Shown here in pieces: positions 17,094 to 63,925 of a stretch of DNA of 64,000 bases (the stretch's first letter is position 1; every line of letters starts with the position of its first letter). Position numbers and translations under genes: made by a program. The notes under the pieces are model-generated. The model searched no databases and was not told the DNA's origin. It saw only the letters and a list, made by a program, of their open reading frames with translations. Origin of the DNA: Actinomyces massiliensis 4401292 (GTDB lineage Bacteria; Actinomycetota; Actinomycetes; Actinomycetales; Actinomycetaceae); assembly GCF_000269805.1 (NCBI RefSeq), contig NZ_JH711483.1, forward strand, positions 564,081 to 628,080, given 5' to 3'.

Positions 17094-18533
17094 ATGAGCG
17101 AGGACCCCTTCGACGACATCGAGCAGATGCTTTCCGCCCTCTTCGGCGCCGAGGTCGCCGGGGACGCCGTTGCCGCTCTGCGCTCCTCCGGCGTCGATCC
17201 CGCTCAGTTCGCCCAGATGAGCGGGGTGGACATGTCTCAGATCAGTCCCGGGCAGATGATGGCGATGCGCGCCCAGATGCAGCAGATGATGGCCGGTGCG
17301 CAGGATGGTCCGGTCAACTGGACCATGGGGCGCACCCTCGCCCTCCAGGAGGCCGGCAAGGGCGGTGATCCGTCTATCACTGCCGCCGAGGCCGATGCGA
17401 CCCGCCAGGCGCTGCGGGTGGCCGACCTGTGGCTGGACACGGCCACCGATCTCATGCCGGCGCCCGGGGCGCGCGAGGCGTGGTCCCGCTCGGAGTGGGT
17501 CGAGCAGACGCTGCCGGTGTGGAAGGACGTGTGCGCCCCGGTCGCCGAGGCCGCTACCGCTGCTCTCGCCACTGCCCTGGAGAGCCAGGCGGAGGACCTG
17601 GCCGCCGCCAATCCCGAGCAGGGGGACGCCGCTCGCCAGGTCGGCGCCCTGACCCAGATCATGCGGTCGATGGCGGGCACCGCCTTCGGCCTCCAGGTCG
17701 GCCATGCCGTCGGCGAGCTCGCGGGTCAGGCCGTGGCCGCCACCGACGTCGGGCTGCCGCTGAAGCGAGAGCCCGGTACCGCGCTTGTGCCCGCCAATGT
17801 CACGGCCTTCGCCGAGGGCCTGGAGGCCGATGCCGAGCAGGTCCGCATGTTCTTGGCAGTGCGTGAGGCTGCCGCCTCACGTCTGTACGCCCACGTCCCA
17901 TGGCTGCGCAGCCAGCTGCTGGGTGCTGTCGAGACCTACGCGCGTGAGATCCGGATCGATACCGGCGCCATTGAGGAGGCCGTCTCTCAGGTCGACCCCT
18001 CCGATCCTGAGGCGATCCGCTCGGCGCTGGAGTCGGGCATGTTCGCCCCGCAGGAGACGCCTGCCCAGGTCGAGTCGCTGGAGAAGCTGGAGACGCTGCT
18101 GGCGCTCGTGGAGGGCTGGGTCGAGGTCGTCACTGCGCAGGCCACCGCTCCGCATCTGCCGCATGCGATACCGCTGCGGGAGATGGTGCGTCGCCGCCGG
18201 ATTCAGGGCGGCCCCGCCGAGAAGGTCTTCGCCCGCCTCATCGGTCTGGAGTTCCGGCCCCGCCGTGTGCGGGAGGCGGCGCACCTGTGGGAGTTGCTGG
18301 GCGGTGAGGTCGGCGACGGCGAGCGCGACGCGTTCTGGCAGCATCCCGACGTCATGCCGACGGCCTCCGAGCTGGCCGCTCCCGAGGACTTCCTGACCAT
18401 GCGCCGGGCGGCCCAGGATATGGAGGCCGAGGTGGATGCGGACCTCGCCTCATTGCTGGACGGCACGCTGGGCTATGCCGATGGCGTTCGCGACGCCGAC
18501 GAGAACCGCTCCGAAGGCTCGGGAGACGACTGA
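17094..18533 (+). CDS. DUF2342 / zincin-like family protein
   Basis: This 479-aa protein belongs to the DUF2342 family, often named zinc-dependent metalloprotease or putative hydrolase. It has a Met/Gln-rich N-terminal segment (MMAMRAQMQQMM, ~61-72), the conserved GTAFGLQVGHAVGELAGQ region and REAAASRLYAHVPWL (~261). The C-terminal half has LVEGWVEVVT and PLREMVRRRRI. A classical HEXXH is not present in the expected REAAASRLYAH segment, so protease activity should not be assumed. GGGAGGAATCAC before the ATG supports the start. It lies divergent from the PDZ protease, like Rv3195/Rv3194c. Confidence 0.85.
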   Translation: MSEDPFDDIEQMLSALFGAEVAGDAVAALRSSGVDPAQFAQMSGVDMSQISPGQMMAMRAQMQQMMAGAQDGPVNWTMGRTLALQEAGKGGDPSITAAEADATRQALRVADLWLDTATDLMPAPGAREAWSRSEWVEQTLPVWKDVCAPVAEAATAALATALESQAEDLAAANPEQGDAARQVGALTQIMRSMAGTAFGLQVGHAVGELAGQAVAATDVGLPLKREPGTALVPANVTAFAEGLEADAEQVRMFLAVREAAASRLYAHVPWLRSQLLGAVETYAREIRIDTGAIEEAVSQVDPSDPEAIRSALESGMFAPQETPAQVESLEKLETLLALVEGWVEVVTAQATAPHLPHAIPLREMVRRRRIQGGPAEKVFARLIGLEFRPRRVREAAHLWELLGGEVGDGERDAFWQHPDVMPTASELAAPEDFLTMRRAAQDMEAEVDADLASLLDGTLGYADGVRDADENRSEGSGDD

Positions 18534-18544
18534 TCCGCGGATCT

Positions 18545-18610
18545 GCGCCGAGATCGGTCGTACTCCGCGCCGAGATCGGTCGTACTCCGGGCCGAGATCG
18601 GTTCACACGA
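18545..18610. repeat. 22-bp tandem repeat, three copies (CGAGATCGGTC family)
   Basis: CGAGATCGG starts at 18549, 18571 and 18593, exactly 22 bp apart. Copies 1 and 2 are identical over 22 bp (GCGCCGAGATCGGTCGTACT plus CC); copy 3 is degenerate and overlaps the stop codon of the PPA1309 gene. The array fills the space between two convergent genes. Related arrays with the same period occur at 57861 and 63664. Confidence 0.9.
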
Positions 18611-19196
18611 GTGTCGATCCCAGGGCCTCGATGAGTCCCGGTACGAGGGCGTCGCCGCTCACCACTCGATCGGCCGAGTCCTGCGCCCTGGAGCGGACCG
18701 CGCACCAGGACTCACCGGTGCGCAGTACCCCGACCACTATCCGCACGTCCTCGCGGTCAGATCGTGAGCTCAGGAAGGCCAGGCGCTCCTGAGCATCGTG
18801 AATCTTGGCGGCCTCCTGCTCGGCCTCGGGCGGCAGCACCACTCGCTCCACGGTGAGCGCCGCCCCGTCGACGGCCTGCGGCCAGGCGAGCTGGCCCAGC
18901 AGGTCTTCCAGGTCCGCGGCGGCCGGCAGGTTCTCCTGCTCGATCATGGTCAGCGCCTGCGGGTCGCGTCGCGCCTCGGCCAGCGCCGCGTCATCGAGAA
19001 CCTCGGCCAGCTCGGGGTCCTGTGCCAGAGCCGCGGCAGTGCGCACCAGTGCGAAAACCGTGACCGGGGCGTCCCAGCCGCGTTGAGCGACATGCTCCTC
19101 GAGCTCGACGACGGCGCGGGCCAGGGCAGCCTGTCCCGCAGTGGCGGGCGTTGAAGCGGGCTGACGGTCAGGTGTTTGCTCAGTCATGTCAGTCAT
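18603..19196 (-). CDS. PPA1309-family protein, unknown function
   Basis: The 197-aa protein matches the actinobacterial PPA1309 family by order and pattern of its motifs: an N-terminal helix LARAVVELEEHVAQRGWDAP, FALVRT, ALTMIEQENLP, LEDLLGQLAWP and the strand LTVERVVLPPEAE. It is soluble, acidic and has no recognised catalytic motif. The start is supported by TAGGCT exactly 6 nt before the ATG and the lack of a Shine-Dalgarno. The gene is convergent with DUF2342 and divergent from UPF0182, as in other actinobacteria. Confidence 0.8.
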   Translation of the reverse strand: MTDMTEQTPDRQPASTPATAGQAALARAVVELEEHVAQRGWDAPVTVFALVRTAAALAQDPELAEVLDDAALAEARRDPQALTMIEQENLPAAADLEDLLGQLAWPQAVDGAALTVERVVLPPEAEQEAAKIHDAQERLAFLSSRSDREDVRIVVGVLRTGESWCAVRSRAQDSADRVVSGDALVPGLIEALGSTLV

Positions 19197-19208: not shown

Positions 19209-19351
19209 CGGCTCACGCGAGTGGCGCAATGGGTTTTGTGGGCTCAGCGTGACCTGTGGAACGATTGCGGTAACCGGCGTCACCGGCGTCGGAGTCCGTA
19301 CGTGCGCATTCGCGCGCATTTCGCAACACCGCAACAACACGGAGCGTGACC

Positions 19352-22300
19352 GTGAGCACCAGGCCTGACGACGATTCCGACGACAAGCCCGAGCGTCCTG
19401 CGCCCGACGACTCCTCCCCGTCCAGCCGGGAGGATCGTGTGCGCGGCGGTTTCTTCCAATCCGATGATGCCGGTGCCGACGGCGCCTCTGACAAGGGCTC
19501 TCGCAAGGACCCCCGCAAGCATTCGGCCGGCGGCGCGTCCGAGGGCTCCGGTGACAGCGGTGAGGACGGCGAGAGCTCCCAGCGCGGCTTCGACCCGGCG
19601 TCTTTCCTGTTCGGCGCCGCCGCTCCGTTCGGCTCGCGACGCCCGGACGACTCGGATGACGAGGGCGGTTCCGGACGGAAAGGCTCGAGCGGATCGGGCG
19701 GGCCTCGACGCCCCTCGCGTCCCACACCCGGGGCCGCGGACGGACCACGTCGCCCGGGCCCGTTGGCCTGGACCCTGGGAATCCTCGCCGCGTTGGCCGC
19801 GGTCGTCATCTTCCTGTCGCGCACGTGGACCGAGGTGCTCTGGTTCGACCAGCTCGGCTTCGCGCGCGTGGTGTGGACCCAGTGGATTGCGGCCGGCGTC
19901 ATGTTCGTCGTTGGTTTCCTCATGATGTTCGGCGCTGTGTTCGCCGCCATCACCAGGGCGTATCGCTCGCGCGAGATCGGTCTTCCGCACGATGAGGCGA
20001 CCCGTAACCTCGAGGCTTATCGCACCGCGGTGGAGCCGATGCGCCGGGCACTGACCTGGGGCGTGCCCGGGGTGTTGGCGCTGCTCGCCTCGGCGTGGGA
20101 GCTCGCCCCGCACTGGCAGGAGGCGCTGCTGGCCATTCACTCGCACTCTTTCGGCGTCACCGATCCGCAGTTCGGCCTGGACATCTCGTTCTACGTATTC
20201 ATCCTGCCGGTGCTGGAGATCGTGGTCTCCTTCCTATCGCGCGTGGTCGTGATCGCCGGCATCGCCAGTGTCGTCGTCCACTACCTGTACGGCGGAGTCT
20301 CGGTGGCCCGCAAGCCCCACTTCACGAGGGCCGCGCGTCTTCACCTGACCGTTTTCCTCGCCCTGTTCTCCGTGCTTCACGGTGCGGGCTACTGGCTCGG
20401 CCGCTACTCCTCGCTGTACGCCTCGAATACGAAGTTCGACGGCGCCGGTTACACCGATGTCCACGCCTCCATTCCGGCTCAGGCGATCCTGGCCGCCATC
20501 AGCGTTGCGGTGGCGGTGCTGTTCGTCGCCTCGGCGCGCACCAGTTCGTGGCGGCTGCCGGTCACGGGTGTGACCGTCATGGTCATCTCGGCGCTGATCG
20601 TGGGTGTCGCCTACCCGGTGGTCATTCAGAAGTTCGTCGTGGATCCCAACGCCCAGCGCGAGGAGTCCGAGTACATCGACCGCAACATCAAGGCCACTCT
20701 GAGTGCTTACGGCCTGGGCGATGTGGAGGCCTCCGCCTACAACGCCAAGACCACTGCCGAGGCGGGCCAGCTCATGGATGATGCCGAGTCGACGACCTCG
20801 ATCCGCTTGCTGGATCCGAACCTCGTCTCTCCGGCCTTCAAGCAGCGTCAGCAGAACAAGCAGTACTACTCGTTCGACTCCCAGCTCAACGTTGACCGCT
20901 ACGGGGTGTCGGGCGAATCCCGCGATACGGTGATCGCGGTTCGCGAGTTGAGCCAGGAGGGTCTGGAGAACGGGCAGCGCACGTGGATCAATGACCACAC
21001 CGTTTACACCCATGGCTACGGCGTGGTCACCGCGTACGGGAACACGGCCAGCTCCGACGGCTCACCCGCGTTCTGGGAGGGCGGAATCCCCTCCGAGGGG
21101 GAGCTGGGCGACTACGAGCCGCGCATCTACTTCGGCAAGTCCACGCCCTCCTACTCGATCGTGGGCGGGGACGACGGCGGGAATCCGCGCGAGCTCGACT
21201 ACCCTGATGACTCGGCTCCTTCTGGCCAGATCAACACCACCTTCTCCGGCAGCGGGGGGCCGAACGTCTCCAACCCGTTCAACCGGCTCCTGTATGCGAC
21301 GAAGTTCGCCGAGATGAACATCCTGTTCTCCCAGGAGGTCCGCTCCGGCTCTCAGATCCTCTACGACCGCGACCCGGCCAAGCGGGTCGCCAAGGTCGCC
21401 CCGTGGCTGACCCTCGACGGCAATCCCTATCCGGCTGTCATTGATGACGACGATGATCCGAGCACGCCCAAGCGCGTCAAGTGGATCCTCGACGGCTACA
21501 CCACGACTAACAACTACCCCTACTCCCAGCACGAGTCCCTGGAGGACTCCATGAGCGATGCGACGACGGGGCAGGCGTCCCTGCTCGGCGCCCCCAAGGA
21601 GTCCAACTACGTGCGCAACTCCGTCAAGGCCGTCGTCGATGCCTATGACGGCAGCGTCAAGCTGTACGAGTGGGATGAGCAGGACCCGCTCCTGGACGCC
21701 TGGCAGTCCGTCTTCCCGGGCACCGTCACGCCGATGAGCGAGATGAGCGCCGACCTCATGGCTCATATGCGTTACCCGGAGGACCTGTTCAAGGTCCAGC
21801 GCACGGTGATGGCTACCTACCATGTCACCGATCCGGAAGACTTCTACTCGGGCGGCGACTTCTGGAAGGTCCCCGATGACCCCACGAAGGAGGGGGACTC
21901 CCCGCAGGCGCCCTACTACCTGACCCTGAAGATGCCGGACCAGGACGAGGCGTCCTTCTCCCTGTCGAGCGTCTACATCATCGGCGGGAACACGGATCGC
22001 AATGTGCTGACCGGATTCCTCGCGGTGGACTCCGAGACGGCCAGCGGCGAACCGGGCGTGAGGAACCCCGATTACGGCAAGCTGCGATTGCTCGAGCTGC
22101 CGAGATCCTCCAATGTGTCGGGCCCCGGGCAGGTGCAGAACAACTTCAACTCCTATGGCAATGCCAGTCCGGTCCTCAACCTGTTGAGTCAGCAGGGCTC
22201 GCAGGTCATCAAGGGCAACCTGTTGACTTTGCCGGTGGGCGGCGGTCTGCTCTACGTCCAGCCCGTGTACGTCCAGTCCTCCTCGGGGACGCAGTACCCG

Positions 22301-22768
22301 CTGCTGCGCAAGGTGCTGGTCTCCTTCGGCGACAAGATCGGCTTCGCCGACACGCTGCAGGAGGCTCTCGATCAGGTCTTCGGAGGGGACTCGGGGGCGA
22401 CGACGGGTCAGGAGGTCGTCGACGGCGACTCCGCCGCGGCCAACGACACGTCCTCGAGCACCGATCCGTCCGCCGATTCGGGGACGGAGCCCACGGCTGA
22501 TCCGAGTGCGGCGGCATCCGCCAGCGCCCAGCCGCCGACGGCGAGCGCGCAGCCCTCGGCATCGGCCTCGGCTAGCGGGAGTGCCTCGGCATCCATTGGC
22601 GATCCTCAGACGGATCTCGATACCGCCCTCGCGGATGCGAAGTCCGCTATGGATGACTCCAACAAGGCGATGCAATCGGGGGACTGGACGGCCTACGGTG
22701 AGGCGCAGACCAGGCTCAACAACGCCCTCAACCGGGCCGTCGAGGCCCAGAAGAAGCTGGGCGGCTGA
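19352..22768 (+). CDS. UPF0182 family membrane protein
   Basis: This large protein (1138 aa) has a disordered charged N-terminus (~1-125), seven predicted transmembrane helices between ~130 and ~430, a long extracytoplasmic region (~435-1000), a Ser/Ala-rich linker and a helical C-terminus. That is the UPF0182 (Rv3193c-type) architecture, whose biochemical role is unknown. The GTG at 19352 was preferred over the in-frame GTG at 19346 because GGAG (19341-19344) lies 7 nt before it. A GC-rich hairpin at 22842 probably ends the transcript. Confidence 0.92.
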   Translation: MSTRPDDDSDDKPERPAPDDSSPSSREDRVRGGFFQSDDAGADGASDKGSRKDPRKHSAGGASEGSGDSGEDGESSQRGFDPASFLFGAAAPFGSRRPDDSDDEGGSGRKGSSGSGGPRRPSRPTPGAADGPRRPGPLAWTLGILAALAAVVIFLSRTWTEVLWFDQLGFARVVWTQWIAAGVMFVVGFLMMFGAVFAAITRAYRSREIGLPHDEATRNLEAYRTAVEPMRRALTWGVPGVLALLASAWELAPHWQEALLAIHSHSFGVTDPQFGLDISFYVFILPVLEIVVSFLSRVVVIAGIASVVVHYLYGGVSVARKPHFTRAARLHLTVFLALFSVLHGAGYWLGRYSSLYASNTKFDGAGYTDVHASIPAQAILAAISVAVAVLFVASARTSSWRLPVTGVTVMVISALIVGVAYPVVIQKFVVDPNAQREESEYIDRNIKATLSAYGLGDVEASAYNAKTTAEAGQLMDDAESTTSIRLLDPNLVSPAFKQRQQNKQYYSFDSQLNVDRYGVSGESRDTVIAVRELSQEGLENGQRTWINDHTVYTHGYGVVTAYGNTASSDGSPAFWEGGIPSEGELGDYEPRIYFGKSTPSYSIVGGDDGGNPRELDYPDDSAPSGQINTTFSGSGGPNVSNPFNRLLYATKFAEMNILFSQEVRSGSQILYDRDPAKRVAKVAPWLTLDGNPYPAVIDDDDDPSTPKRVKWILDGYTTTNNYPYSQHESLEDSMSDATTGQASLLGAPKESNYVRNSVKAVVDAYDGSVKLYEWDEQDPLLDAWQSVFPGTVTPMSEMSADLMAHMRYPEDLFKVQRTVMATYHVTDPEDFYSGGDFWKVPDDPTKEGDSPQAPYYLTLKMPDQDEASFSLSSVYIIGGNTDRNVLTGFLAVDSETASGEPGVRNPDYGKLRLLELPRSSNVSGPGQVQNNFNSYGNASPVLNLLSQQGSQVIKGNLLTLPVGGGLLYVQPVYVQSSSGTQYPLLRKVLVSFGDKIGFADTLQEALDQVFGGDSGATTGQEVVDGDSAAANDTSSSTDPSADSGTEPTADPSAAASASAQPPTASAQPSASASASGSASASIGDPQTDLDTALADAKSAMDDSNKAMQSGDWTAYGEAQTRLNNALNRAVEAQKKLGG

Positions 22769-23057: not shown

Positions 23058-23131
23058 CGCGGGGTGGAGCAGTTCGGTAGCTCGCCGGGCTCATAACCCG
23101 GAGGTCGCAGGTTCGAATCCTGCCCCCGCTA
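23058..23131 (+). tRNA. tRNA-fMet (CAT), initiator
   Basis: A 74-nt tRNA without encoded CCA. The acceptor stem GCGGGG/CCCCGC leaves position 1 (C) unpaired, and the anticodon stem ends in three GC pairs (GGG-CTCATAA-CCC). Both are hallmarks of initiator tRNA. Anticodon CAT is at 23092-23094 and the T-arm reads GCAGGTTCGAATCCTGC. It lies downstream of UPF0182 and has its own promoter and terminator. Confidence 0.96.
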
Positions 23132-55356: not shown

Positions 55357-57819
<2,463 letters not shown>

Positions 57820-57860
57820 CCATCCCCTTCTAGAGCTCTCCTGCTCTTCACGCTCTTCAC

Positions 57861-57940
57861 GCCGAGATCGGTCCGGTTCCGCGCCGAGATCGGTCCGGTT
57901 CCGCCGCGAGATCGGTCCGGTTCCGGCTCGAGATCGGTCC
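57861..57940. repeat. 22-bp tandem repeat, four copies (CGAGATCGGTC family)
   Basis: CGAGATCGG starts at 57863, 57885, 57907 and 57929, exactly 22 bp apart; three copies share GAGATCGGTCCGGTTCCG. The array begins about 40 bp after the ligA stop. It is the largest of three related arrays in the window. Within each unit CCGA and TCGG form a short dyad around GA. Confidence 0.92.
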
Positions 57941-60593: not shown

Positions 60594-62134
60594 GCACCAC
60601 CGGGACGAATCCACTGATCCGCCGCTCGGCCGCCGAGCAGGCGGCCGCCCTCGCGGCCGGGGAGGTCTCCTCGCGAGAACTCACCGCTGCCCACCTGGAG
60701 CGCATCGAGGCGGTCGACGGCGCCGTCAACGCCTTCCTCGACATCGATGCCGAGCGGGCCCTCGCCCAGGCCGACGCCGCGGACGCCGAGCGGGCCGAGG
60801 CGGCCCGGGACGGCCGTCAGATGCCCGAGCTCACCGGCGTGCCCGTGGCCGTCAAGGACCTCATCGTCACCCGCGGGCAGGTCACCACTGCCGCGTCCAA
60901 GATCCTCCAGGGCTGGGTGCCGCCCTACGACGCCACCCTGGTGCGCAACCTGCACGCCGCCCACACCCCGATCCTGGGCAAGACCAACCTGGATGAGTTC
61001 GCCATGGGCGGCTCCACCGAGCACTCCGCCTTCGGCCGGACCTCCAACCCGTGGGACCTGGGCCGCATCCCCGGGGGCTCCTCAGGGGGATCGGCCGCCG
61101 CCGTCGGGACGTTCGAGGCGCCGCTGGCCGTGGGCACCGACACGGGCGGATCGATCCGCCAGCCCGCCGCCGTCACCGGGACCGTGGGAGTCAAGCCCAC
61201 CTATGGGACGGTCTCCCGCTTCGGCGTCATCGCCATGGCGTCCTCGTTGGACACCCCCGGCCCCATGGCCCGCACCGTGCTGGACACCGCCCTCCTCCAC
61301 GACGTCCTGGCCTCCCACGACCCGCTTGACTCCACATCCCTGGCGGACGCGCCGCGCGGTATGGCCGGAGTCGTGCGCGCCGCCCAGGAGGGACGCGACC
61401 TGAGCGGGCTTCGCGTGGGCGTCATCGCCGAGCTCGACGGCGGCGAGGGCTACCACGACGGCGTCGTCGCCTCCTTCCACAGCGCCCTGGAGCTGCTTCA
61501 GGCCGCCGGGGCACAGATCGAGACCGTCTCCCTGCCGCATCTGGAGTACGCGCTGGACGCCTACTACCTCATCATGCCCGCCGAGGCCTCCTCCAACCTG
61601 GCCCGCTACGACGGCATGCGCTACGGCCTGCGGGTCGAGCCCGCCGAGGGCCCCGTCACCGCTGAAACCGTCATGGCGGCCACCCGCGGCGCCGGCTTCG
61701 GCGACGAGGTCAAGCGGCGCATCATCCTGGGCACCCATGTACTGTCCGCCGGCTATTACGATGCCTACTACGGCTCGGCTCAGAAGGTGCGCACCCTCGT
61801 TCAGCGCGACTTCGCCGCCGCCTGGGACAAGGCGGACATCCTGGTCTCGCCCACTGCCCCGGTGACGGCCTACCGATTCGGGGAGAAGGACGACCCTCTG
61901 GCCATGTACAAGCTGGACGTCACCACGATCCCGGCGAATCTTGCGGGCGTGCCCGGCATGAGCCTGCCCTCGGGCCTGAGTGACGACGGGCTGCCGGTCG
62001 GCTTCCAGATCCTGGCGCCGCAGCGGGCCGATGACCGGCTCTACCGCGCCGGCGCGGTCCTGGAGGCCGCACTCGAGGAGACATGGGGGGCGCCGCTGCT
62101 GTCGCGGGCCCCCGAGCTGGAGGAGGCACGATGA
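60590..62134 (+). CDS. gatA: Asp-tRNA(Asn)/Glu-tRNA(Gln) amidotransferase subunit A
   Basis: GatA releases ammonia from glutamine and feeds it to GatB. The 514-aa amidase-signature enzyme has the Ser-cisSer-Lys triad: K89 (VAVKDLIV), S164 ([10 protein letters not shown]) and S188 ([12 protein letters not shown]). The length and motif spacing are normal. It is coupled to gatC and gatB by 4-nt overlaps. Confidence 0.97.
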
Positions 62135-63627
62135 GCCAGACGCTGATGGACTACGACGAGGCGGTGCGCCGCTACGACCCGGTCCTGGGACTGGAGGTGC
62201 ACGTCGAACTGGGCACGGCCACCAAGATGTTCGACGCCGCCCCCAACATCTTCGGCGCGCAGCCCAACACGATGGTCACCCCTACCTCGGTGGGCCTGCC
62301 CGGCGCACTGCCCGTGGTCAATGCCCGGGGGGTGGAGTACGCCATCCGCATCGGCCTGGCACTGGGGTGCGAGATCGCCGAGTCCTGCCGCTTCGCCCGG
62401 AAGAACTACTTCTACCCGGACCTGGCCAAGGACTTCCAGACCTCCCAGTCCGATGAGCCGATCGCCCACGATGGTGCCCTGGAGATCGAGTTGGAGGACG
62501 GCTCCTTCTTCACGATCCCGATCGAGCGGGCCCATATGGAGGAGGACGCCGGGAAGAACACCCACGTGGGCGGTGCCGACGGACGCATCGAGGGCGCCAG
62601 CCACTCCCTGGTGGACTACAACCGCGCAGGCGTCCCCCTGGTGGAGATCGTCACCCGCCCCATTGAGGGCGCGGGTGCCAGGGCCCCCGAGGTCGCGGCA
62701 ACCTACGTGCGCACTCTTCGCGACATCTTCCGGGCGCTTGGCGTCTCCGAGGCGCGCATGGAGCGCGGCAATGTGCGCGCCGATGTCAATGTGTCTCTGC
62801 GCGAGTCCCCGGACGGCCCTCTGGGGACGCGCACCGAGACGAAGAATGTCAATACTTTCCGCGGGATCGAGCAGGTCGTCCGCTATGAGATCCAGCGCCA
62901 GGCCGCGATCCTTGCCGCCGGAGGCGAGGTGCTGCAGGAGACTCGCCACGGTCAGGCCGATGGCACTACCCGTGCCGGTCGTGTGAAGTCCGATGCCGAT
63001 GACTATCGCTACTTCCCCGAGCCGGATCTCGTGCCCGTGGCGCCCAGCCGGGAGTGGGTCGAGACGATTCGCGCCTCGCTCCCGGAGATGCCGGCCGCCA
63101 AGCGCCGTCGTCTCAAGAAGGAGTGGCAGCTGGCCGACGATGAGATGCGCGACGTGGTCAACGCCGGTGCACTTGAGCTCATTGAGGCCACAGTGCTTGC
63201 CGGTTCGAGCGGTCAGTCCGCCCGCAAGTGGTGGATGGGCGAGCTCGCCCGCGCAGCCAAGGATCGTGAGGTCTCCCTTGAGGAGCTGCCGGTATCGCCG
63301 GAGCAGGTGGCCGAGCTGCAGGGCCTGGTGGATTCCGGGCGGCTGACCGACAAGCTGGCCCGCCAGGTGCTTGACGGCGTGCTGGCAGGCGAAGGCGGGC
63401 CGAGCGCAGTCGTCGAGGCGCGTGGACTCGAGGTCGTTTCGGACGATTCGGCTCTTCTGGCCGCCGTCGATGAGGCCCTGGCGGCTCAGCCCGATGTTGC
63501 CGAGAAGATTCGAGGCGGCAAGGTCAAGGCGGCTGGCGCGATTGTGGGTGCGGTCATGAAGGCGACCCGTGGTCAGGCTGATGCCCGGCGTGTGCGTGAG
63601 CTCGTGATGGAGCGGGTTGCTCGTTAG
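62131..63627 (+). CDS. gatB: Asp-tRNA(Asn)/Glu-tRNA(Gln) amidotransferase subunit B
   Basis: GatB binds mischarged tRNA and performs the kinase and transamidation steps. The 498-aa sequence contains [47 protein letters not shown] and the C-terminal YqeY-like tail. The ATG at 62131 was chosen from the GGAGGAGG and the 4-nt overlap with gatA. It completes the operon. Confidence 0.97.
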
Positions 63628-63663: not shown

Positions 63664-63694
63664 CGAGATCGTTTCGGCTCCGCATCGAGGCCGG
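63664..63694. repeat. Degenerate two-copy relic of the 22-bp repeat
   Basis: CGAGATCGT at 63664 and CGAGGCCGG at 63686 are again exactly 22 bp apart, with TTTCGGCTCCG between. It lies about 35 bp after the gatB stop, in the 298-bp gap before the malic enzyme gene. Confidence 0.65.
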
Positions 63695-63925
63695 TCAGAT
63701 GCGCCTGGAAGTAATCGATGCCGCTGTGGGGCCGATGCGTCTTCCGCGCGAGTTCTGTGCGGGGCGCGTCGGCCTCACGCGCTGTCTCATGGAGCGGTCC
63801 TCCCGGGGCCTTCCAACTGCGCACTGGCGATAAAGTTTCTTCGTCGAATACCGACTGCTACCGACTGCATGATGACTCGTGCCCGGTCCGCCGACCGGTC
63901 TCCGTCCTCCCGAAGGAACACATAT

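Follow-up and report, generated by a model that had tools for sequence, protein, structure and literature searches.

The window, that is the whole analysed stretch of 64 kb, lies on contig C3 of an Actinomyces genome of 3.37 Mb (labelled G000) and holds three short tandem arrays, each built on an 11-bp core with a period of 22 bp and reading with the gene that ends upstream of it. The arrays and the features next to them are the following:

17094-18533, plus strand: ORF upstream of array 1, a putative DUF2342 gene (name given by an earlier sequence-only reading)
18549-18603, plus strand: array 1, three 11-mer cores at a 22-bp period, sense to ORF 17094-18533; it directly adjoins the stop codon of ORF 18603-19196, which is convergent
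18603-19196, minus strand: ORF convergent to array 1, a putative PPA1309 gene (name likewise from the earlier reading)
57820-57862, plus strand: pyrimidine-rich leader between stop codon and array 2, with the 9-bp tandem repeat GCTCTTCAC
57863-57939, plus strand: array 2, four exact 11-mer cores at a 22-bp period, sense to ORF 55360-57819
63664-63696, plus strand: array 3, decayed, two cores at a 22-bp period, sense to ORF 62131-63627, whose stop lies 36 bp upstream

Array 1 is located between the two convergent ORFs, and its cores (CGAGATCGGTC at 18549 and 18571, CGAGATCGGTT at 18593) are exactly 22 bp apart. Because base 18603 ends the third 11-mer and also begins TCA, the minus-strand stop, the array overlaps a stop codon, as the sequence-only reading had described, by a single base. 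The cores of array 2 start at 57863, 57885, 57907 and 57929, 43 bp 3' of the stop of the ORF ending at 57819. In array 3 the two cores (CGAGATCGTTT at 63664 and CGAGGCCGGTC at 63686) carry two mismatches each around a consensus-like spacer, and the matrix scan picked up the first unit only. All three loci named earlier are real, two as intact arrays and the third as a decayed pair of equal period. At one mismatch or fewer, the window contains 13 matches compared to 3.75 expected, a number reached in none of 100 shuffles. A lone exact 11-mer lies at 19972-19982, inside the large ORF 19346-22768 and with no neighbours at 22 bp. A tRNA gene on the plus strand (23058-23131) is the window's only Rfam match at gathering level.

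The 22-bp repeat is a larger observation than first described. The genome contains 761 exact copies of CGAGATCGGTC (383 on the plus and 378 on the minus strand) and 444 exact pairs at the 22-bp period (212 and 232, respectively), with 0 for the reversed pattern in both cases; the proposal of a genome-wide element with this period was hence confirmed by a scan which could have failed to show an excess or the period, and showed both the excess and the period. The anatomy of the element was assessed in a sample of 864 kb, made up of the window and 40 further stretches of 20 kb, which contains 311 exact motifs. Among 214 neighbouring exact motifs less than 400 bp apart, the spacing was 22 bp (186), 44 bp (24) or 66 bp (3) in 213 and 23 bp in one. 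A matrix scan of the same sample yielded 95 arrays, chains of 2-9 units, and none with the reversed control; among the 110 arrays and strong single units, 8 were located in predicted genes. Each array has the structure (CGAGATCGGTC + 11-nt spacer)n, with the units head to tail, followed by a closing core ending in C or T. The CCGA-GA-TCGG dyad pointed out previously is present in the core and is the only one there, and the spacers follow a rough consensus of [CG]NN[TC]TCCG[CG]N[TC]. In 51 arrays, spacer identity was 0.709 for next-but-one spacers, compared to 0.544 for adjacent spacers and 0.575 between different arrays; since none of 1000 within-array shuffles reached this difference, array growth or constraint has a 44-bp component. 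Spacer orders are hardly common between loci, with 5 of 149 spacer pairs present in two or more arrays. The 5' flank of the arrays is C-rich independently of gene direction (C-skew 0.27 vs 0.02 after 413 other genes). Two arrays of opposite orientation 12 kb apart (L135:227-358 and L135:12383-12492) have identical flanks and apparently belong to an inverted segmental duplication, and array density drops along contig C1 of this genome, from 39 per 200 kb (sampled at 0-0.5 Mb) to 11 per 200 kb (1.5-2.0 Mb).

The orientation of the arrays was analysed against genes called with a simple home-made codon-usage caller, for 83 of the 95 own arrays of at least 2 units (2 were excluded for incomplete flanks, and 10 for lying in predicted genes or for not having two neighbours). 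Counting stop codons within 60 bp, 38 arrays were sense only, 5 antisense only, 9 both and 31 neither, where the nine count as both due to a short convergent gap. Among the matches listed, the loci of A. gerencseriae gave 19 sense to 1 antisense (2 both, of 43 arrays) and those of A. israelii 18 to 1 (4 both, of 65 arrays), from 63 of 65 loci (28 and 35, respectively; L087 and L096 were excluded); the counts across species are not independent, as some sites are orthologous. Small samples gave sense to antisense ratios of 2:0 (G025), 3:0 (G016) and 4:0 (G023), and the 1:1 of G024 breaks the pattern. An apparent lack of strand preference, with 31 same against 23 opposite orientations in codirectional gaps, gave way to strong polarity once this was measured at the nearest stop codon. 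A replication-linked orientation was likewise dismissed, as the array strand did not clearly follow the weak GC skew when contig C1 was divided into eight bins.

The 5' side of an array is close to the stop codon, with a median of 29 bp for codirectional sense and 23.5 bp for convergent arrangements, and on the 3' side the distance is large (199 and 212 bp, respectively). Counting gaps of at least 20 bp, arrays of two or more units are present in 20/86 between convergent genes, in 40/300 between codirectional genes and in 2/94 between divergent ones. With the element subtracted from the gap length, arrays were found in 3/178 codirectional gaps below 60 bp, 6/66 of 60-120 bp and 31/188 above 120 bp; short, operon-like gaps are avoided, and the arrays therefore sit where transcription units probably end. 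In A. israelii, divergent gaps are not poor in arrays (12/42 vs 13/40 convergent, in a sample chosen for arrays and among the matches listed), and in G024 three of six arrays lie in divergent gaps. A gene start is found on the 5' side of own arrays in 11/83 cases in solo settings, plus 11 in clusters. The arrays are polar and placed at transcription-unit ends, an observation that is new here and that adds weight to the 3'-end signal, one of three readings left open before.

Exact pairs occur in 7 of the 49 genus genomes. At up to 3 mismatches 39 of the 49 give matches, with 0 to 716 copies per genome; the controls at this setting gave 0 to 3 per genome, and single-digit copy numbers are near control level. 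Several clades have a unit of their own at the same period, resembling CCGAGACCGGTCGAAAACGTCA in G006, G008 and G016, CGAGATCGGGACATCNTGACN in G025 (G011 being similar), and CCGAGATCGGTAGAAATAACCR in G027, G010 (A. glycerinitolerans), G034 and G028, while part of G024 has CCGAGTTCGGTMGATATAACCA; in G023 the period is 23 bp where spacers end in ACGTA. Such retention of the period across diverged units strengthens the protein-binding array, the second of the readings left open. In 100 kb each of G015, G020 and G026, loose matches were near control (5 vs 2, 4 vs 1 and 5 vs 3, respectively), with no excess at lag 22. A single 200-residue protein was used for a tree of 30 of the 49 species, on which the label "many arrays" (at least 20) switches 4 times compared to 9.1 in shuffles. 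Many Actinomyces have few or no arrays, and the element is therefore dispensable in the genus. Among 297 genomes sampled from the order at up to one mismatch, the sole match was the window's own genome. The absence outside Actinomyces rests on this sample and on this setting, which misses variant units: five other sampled genus members scored 0, two of them with variant arrays (G008 and G025). At G008:C12:152195-152266, and similarly in G006, two-unit arrays stand back to back and inverted with a gap of 8-9 bp, so that in these two species they make up a perfect hairpin with arms of 32 bp. G016 (L208-L212) displays, within 100 kb, a strong repeat excess at lags of 19 bp (46) and 38 bp (34), which represents a different tandem family.

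Array sites and orientation are common to species, while copy number changes. The ORF 18603-19196 is matched in every one of the 49 genus genomes searched, and among the 30 of 49 species seen, a counterpart of array 1 at equal place and orientation is present in A. gerencseriae, A. ruminicola (G027) and G028, with degenerate copies in G010 and G041; A. israelii has no array at this site, where two stops lie 15 bp apart. For 62 orthologous intergenic pairs among the matches listed, arrays were present on both sides in 9 (8 different own sites), in the relative only in 3, in the own genome only in 3 (2 different own sites) and on neither side in 47. Orientation was equal for at least one array at 9/9 common sites, and at 5/5 where each side has a single array. 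Centred on genes, sense arrays were common in 9, relative-only in 3, own-only in 4 and absent in 63 cases (odds ratio 47, p 6.5e-7; among the matches listed), a common fraction that is raised by the picking of relatives' loci for holding an array, with a few own genes counted against two relatives. Unit numbers differ at orthologous sites, for instance 2 vs 6 and 2 vs 8, and local tandem duplication must therefore also happen.

Known types of element were searched for. No RNA hairpin was found: for 40 arrays, the mean fold z against dinucleotide shuffles was +0.24 on the array strand and +1.11 on the other. An intrinsic terminator was discarded, the array fold not exceeding shuffles and neither element nor flanks giving a GC-rich hairpin. 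One A. israelii site had pointed to an array in the loop of a split terminator; this too was discarded, the inverted repeats that flank 47 solo arrays being equal to permuted ones (5.55 vs 5.60). The substitution of arrays for hairpin terminators was not significant (p 0.11; stems of at least 12 after 5/40 ends with arrays vs 47/265 ends without, p 0.50); as hairpins are not significantly rarer after arrays than after other genes, terminators are not clearly replaced by them. Against Rfam, a stretch of 201 bp at array 1 matched only s2m, below threshold and at a chance-like E of 0.42. A RAYT-driven REP was not supported, with Y1_Tnp (PF01797) in 0/49 genus genomes and control matches in 5/14 genomes; nor was a Mu/Tn7 transposase, with PF09299 in 1/49 genomes (G019, not the window's) and in none of 14 control genomes. 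A phage or plasmid origin was also rejected, viral contigs holding no exact match and phages and plasmids no match; the neighbouring genes matched three plasmid records, covering at most a quarter of the query. What is left after the hairpin, split-terminator, RAYT and Rfam searches is a polar element acting at the DNA level or as linear RNA.

About half of the arrays (49/95) are solo, and others are part of composite units. Among 32 close array pairs (< 1.2 kb), 22 face each other, 8 run in the same direction and 2 face away; when both arrays have at least 2 units, 18/25 are facing and none face away. A non-coding core of about 400 bp was found 19 times in the 864 kb, and for 17 of these an array lies no more than 300 bp away. 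An 85-bp core is located between two facing arrays at 7/7 places, several times nested at one end of a composite with the 400-bp core. The larger core has CACATGGGAG/CTCCCATGTG inverted repeats (for example L131:10829-11165 and L143:11374-11779), with longer matches also at the A. israelii loci L038, L047 and L083; the smaller is seen at L130:19757-19842, L135:140-226, L151:6086-6165 and four more places. Some sites that hold a composite in the window's genome have, in relatives, a solo array or no array at all. A palindromic repeat of about 70 bp (GTCGAGATCGAC...TTTTTCGCACGAGATCGA...; for example L134:14156-14268 and L142:1505-1574) is an independent dispersed element, found at 28 places in the 864 kb and at 22 of these without an array within 300 bp.

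The recurring cores and composites make some arrays look like the ends of mobile units, which keeps alive the possibility that the family is selfish and of no use to the host, a set of dispersed repeats in which solo arrays as well as composites are non-autonomous mobile elements. The 22-bp units would then be putative enzyme sites, several per end as in Mu and Tn7, with insertion in one orientation near transcript ends and selection removing copies at other places. The predominance of facing arrays, the two cores, the composites of the window's genome and the patchy distribution all speak for this possibility, to which we give serious weight while holding it to be clearly less than an even chance. 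However, chance tolerance at gene ends does not give a polarity of 38:5, the rarity of common spacer orders is unlike the copy-and-paste of a fixed element, and viral contigs gave no exact match and phages and plasmids no match. An oriented insertion mechanism would moreover be required, and searches for two families that might supply its enzyme, Y1_Tnp in the 49 genomes and the Mu-type C-terminal domain in the window's genome, found none. A selfish origin can also hold at the same time as a barrier function; such a joint reading has been argued for REPs as well.

Two further explanations account for less of the data. An array in the 3' UTR, bound as linear RNA by an RNA-binding protein or an RNase, might set mRNA 3' ends or stability with no DNA binding at all, as the sense polarity after stop codons would suggest, but such a signal does not need a fixed 22-bp spacing, and with neither RNA structure on the array strand nor an Rfam family in the window besides the tRNA we consider it improbable. 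A slippage-prone simple repeat without function, the third of the earlier readings, agrees with the differing copy numbers at orthologous sites and with the 44-bp alternation of spacers. Slippage can, however, neither put one 11-mer at hundreds of places nor give polarity, and dispersal and polarity together make this explanation very unlikely.

We therefore tentatively prefer, at somewhat short of even confidence, a polar cis-element of 3' ends, in which a protein-bound DNA array acts as a one-way barrier or a termination aid. The element consists of a C-rich leader and 11-bp cores (CGAGATCGGTC here) with 11-nt spacers, mostly reading with the gene that has just ended. Starting from a polar element at transcription-unit ends, we infer the following steps. 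With about two helical turns per period the cores would lie on one face of the DNA, where a putative lineage-specific protein could bind them side by side, and the bound array would present a one-way obstacle to RNA polymerase. The C-rich leader would fit Rho loading, and Rho possibly joins in. The outcome would be sharper transcript ends and less run-on. Units multiply through local tandem duplication, often as 44-bp pairs. Phased protein sites are favoured by the near-absence of indels while spacers diverge, and by the period being kept with other units, though a constant period would also come from tandem duplication alone. It is conceivable, if rather doubtful, that several Actinomyces clades end many transcription units with one-way, helically phased sites for a DNA-binding protein that evolves fast, and that sites and protein change in step from clade to clade.

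The best-studied dispersed bacterial repeats of such abundance are hairpins, many of them tied to a transposase and read as selfish. The 22-bp family shows neither a hairpin nor a RAYT, its two-turn period is retained as the unit changes from clade to clade, and it is strongly polar at transcription-unit ends. Word searches of the open-access literature yielded no description of a 22-bp repeat of this kind, and among the matches listed for the motif string all were unrelated by title; the arrays look like a hitherto undescribed signal that acts in one direction where transcription units end. A protein roadblock, if true, would be a new route to bacterial transcription termination and a direct way to a fast-evolving DNA-binding partner, and if the arrays are selfish, their polarity points to an oriented insertion mechanism. 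Under either reading they could serve as variable-number markers in Actinomyces.

Mu and Tn7 ends carry several sites of about 22 bp each, in direct order at each end and inverted between ends. Multiple direct sites at two inverted ends fit the composites but not the solo arrays, and unlike in Mu/Tn7, about half of the arrays are solo and PF09299 is missing from the window's genome. The MIRU of mycobacteria, units of 40-100 bp inside operons, likewise are actinobacterial short tandem arrays of variable copy number, oriented with genes and with a copy that may touch a stop codon. Going by this definition the Actinomyces unit differs, being 22 bp long and avoiding operon-like gaps (3/178 codirectional gaps below 60 bp).

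REPs and BIMEs, in the parts of two reports drawn on here (PMC3733652, PMC2817692), number in the hundreds between genes, chiefly in unidirectional and convergent gaps, and are regularly spaced in clusters; binding of REPs by gyrase, IHF and Pol I has been reported, as has a contribution to Rho-dependent termination (PMC3733652, PMC2817692). The Actinomyces element resembles them in having more than 100 extragenic copies per genome (761 exact cores here), in occupying convergent and codirectional gaps and in the regular spacing within its arrays. Unlike the 20-40 bp hairpin palindrome of REPs, it forms arrays of 22-bp units without a hairpin. The column profile of the 311 motifs reveals no fixed tag comparable to GTAG/CGTC, and only 40/216 spacers end in CGT, which reads CGTC before the core. 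Where BIME units alternate, the 22-bp units run head to tail, though whole arrays often face each other; strong polarity, and the lack of Y1_Tnp in 49 genomes, also set the arrays apart.

The roadblock terminators of rDNA, Sal boxes bound by TTF-I, are polar tandem sites just after the transcribed region. The Actinomyces arrays are similar as polar site arrays just after transcribed units, a likeness only in how the two would work, while unit, phasing and kingdom differ. By this analogy the phased arrays, with their clade-by-clade units, might be a bacterial, genome-wide counterpart of the rDNA roadblock terminators, an idea we regard as somewhat unlikely.
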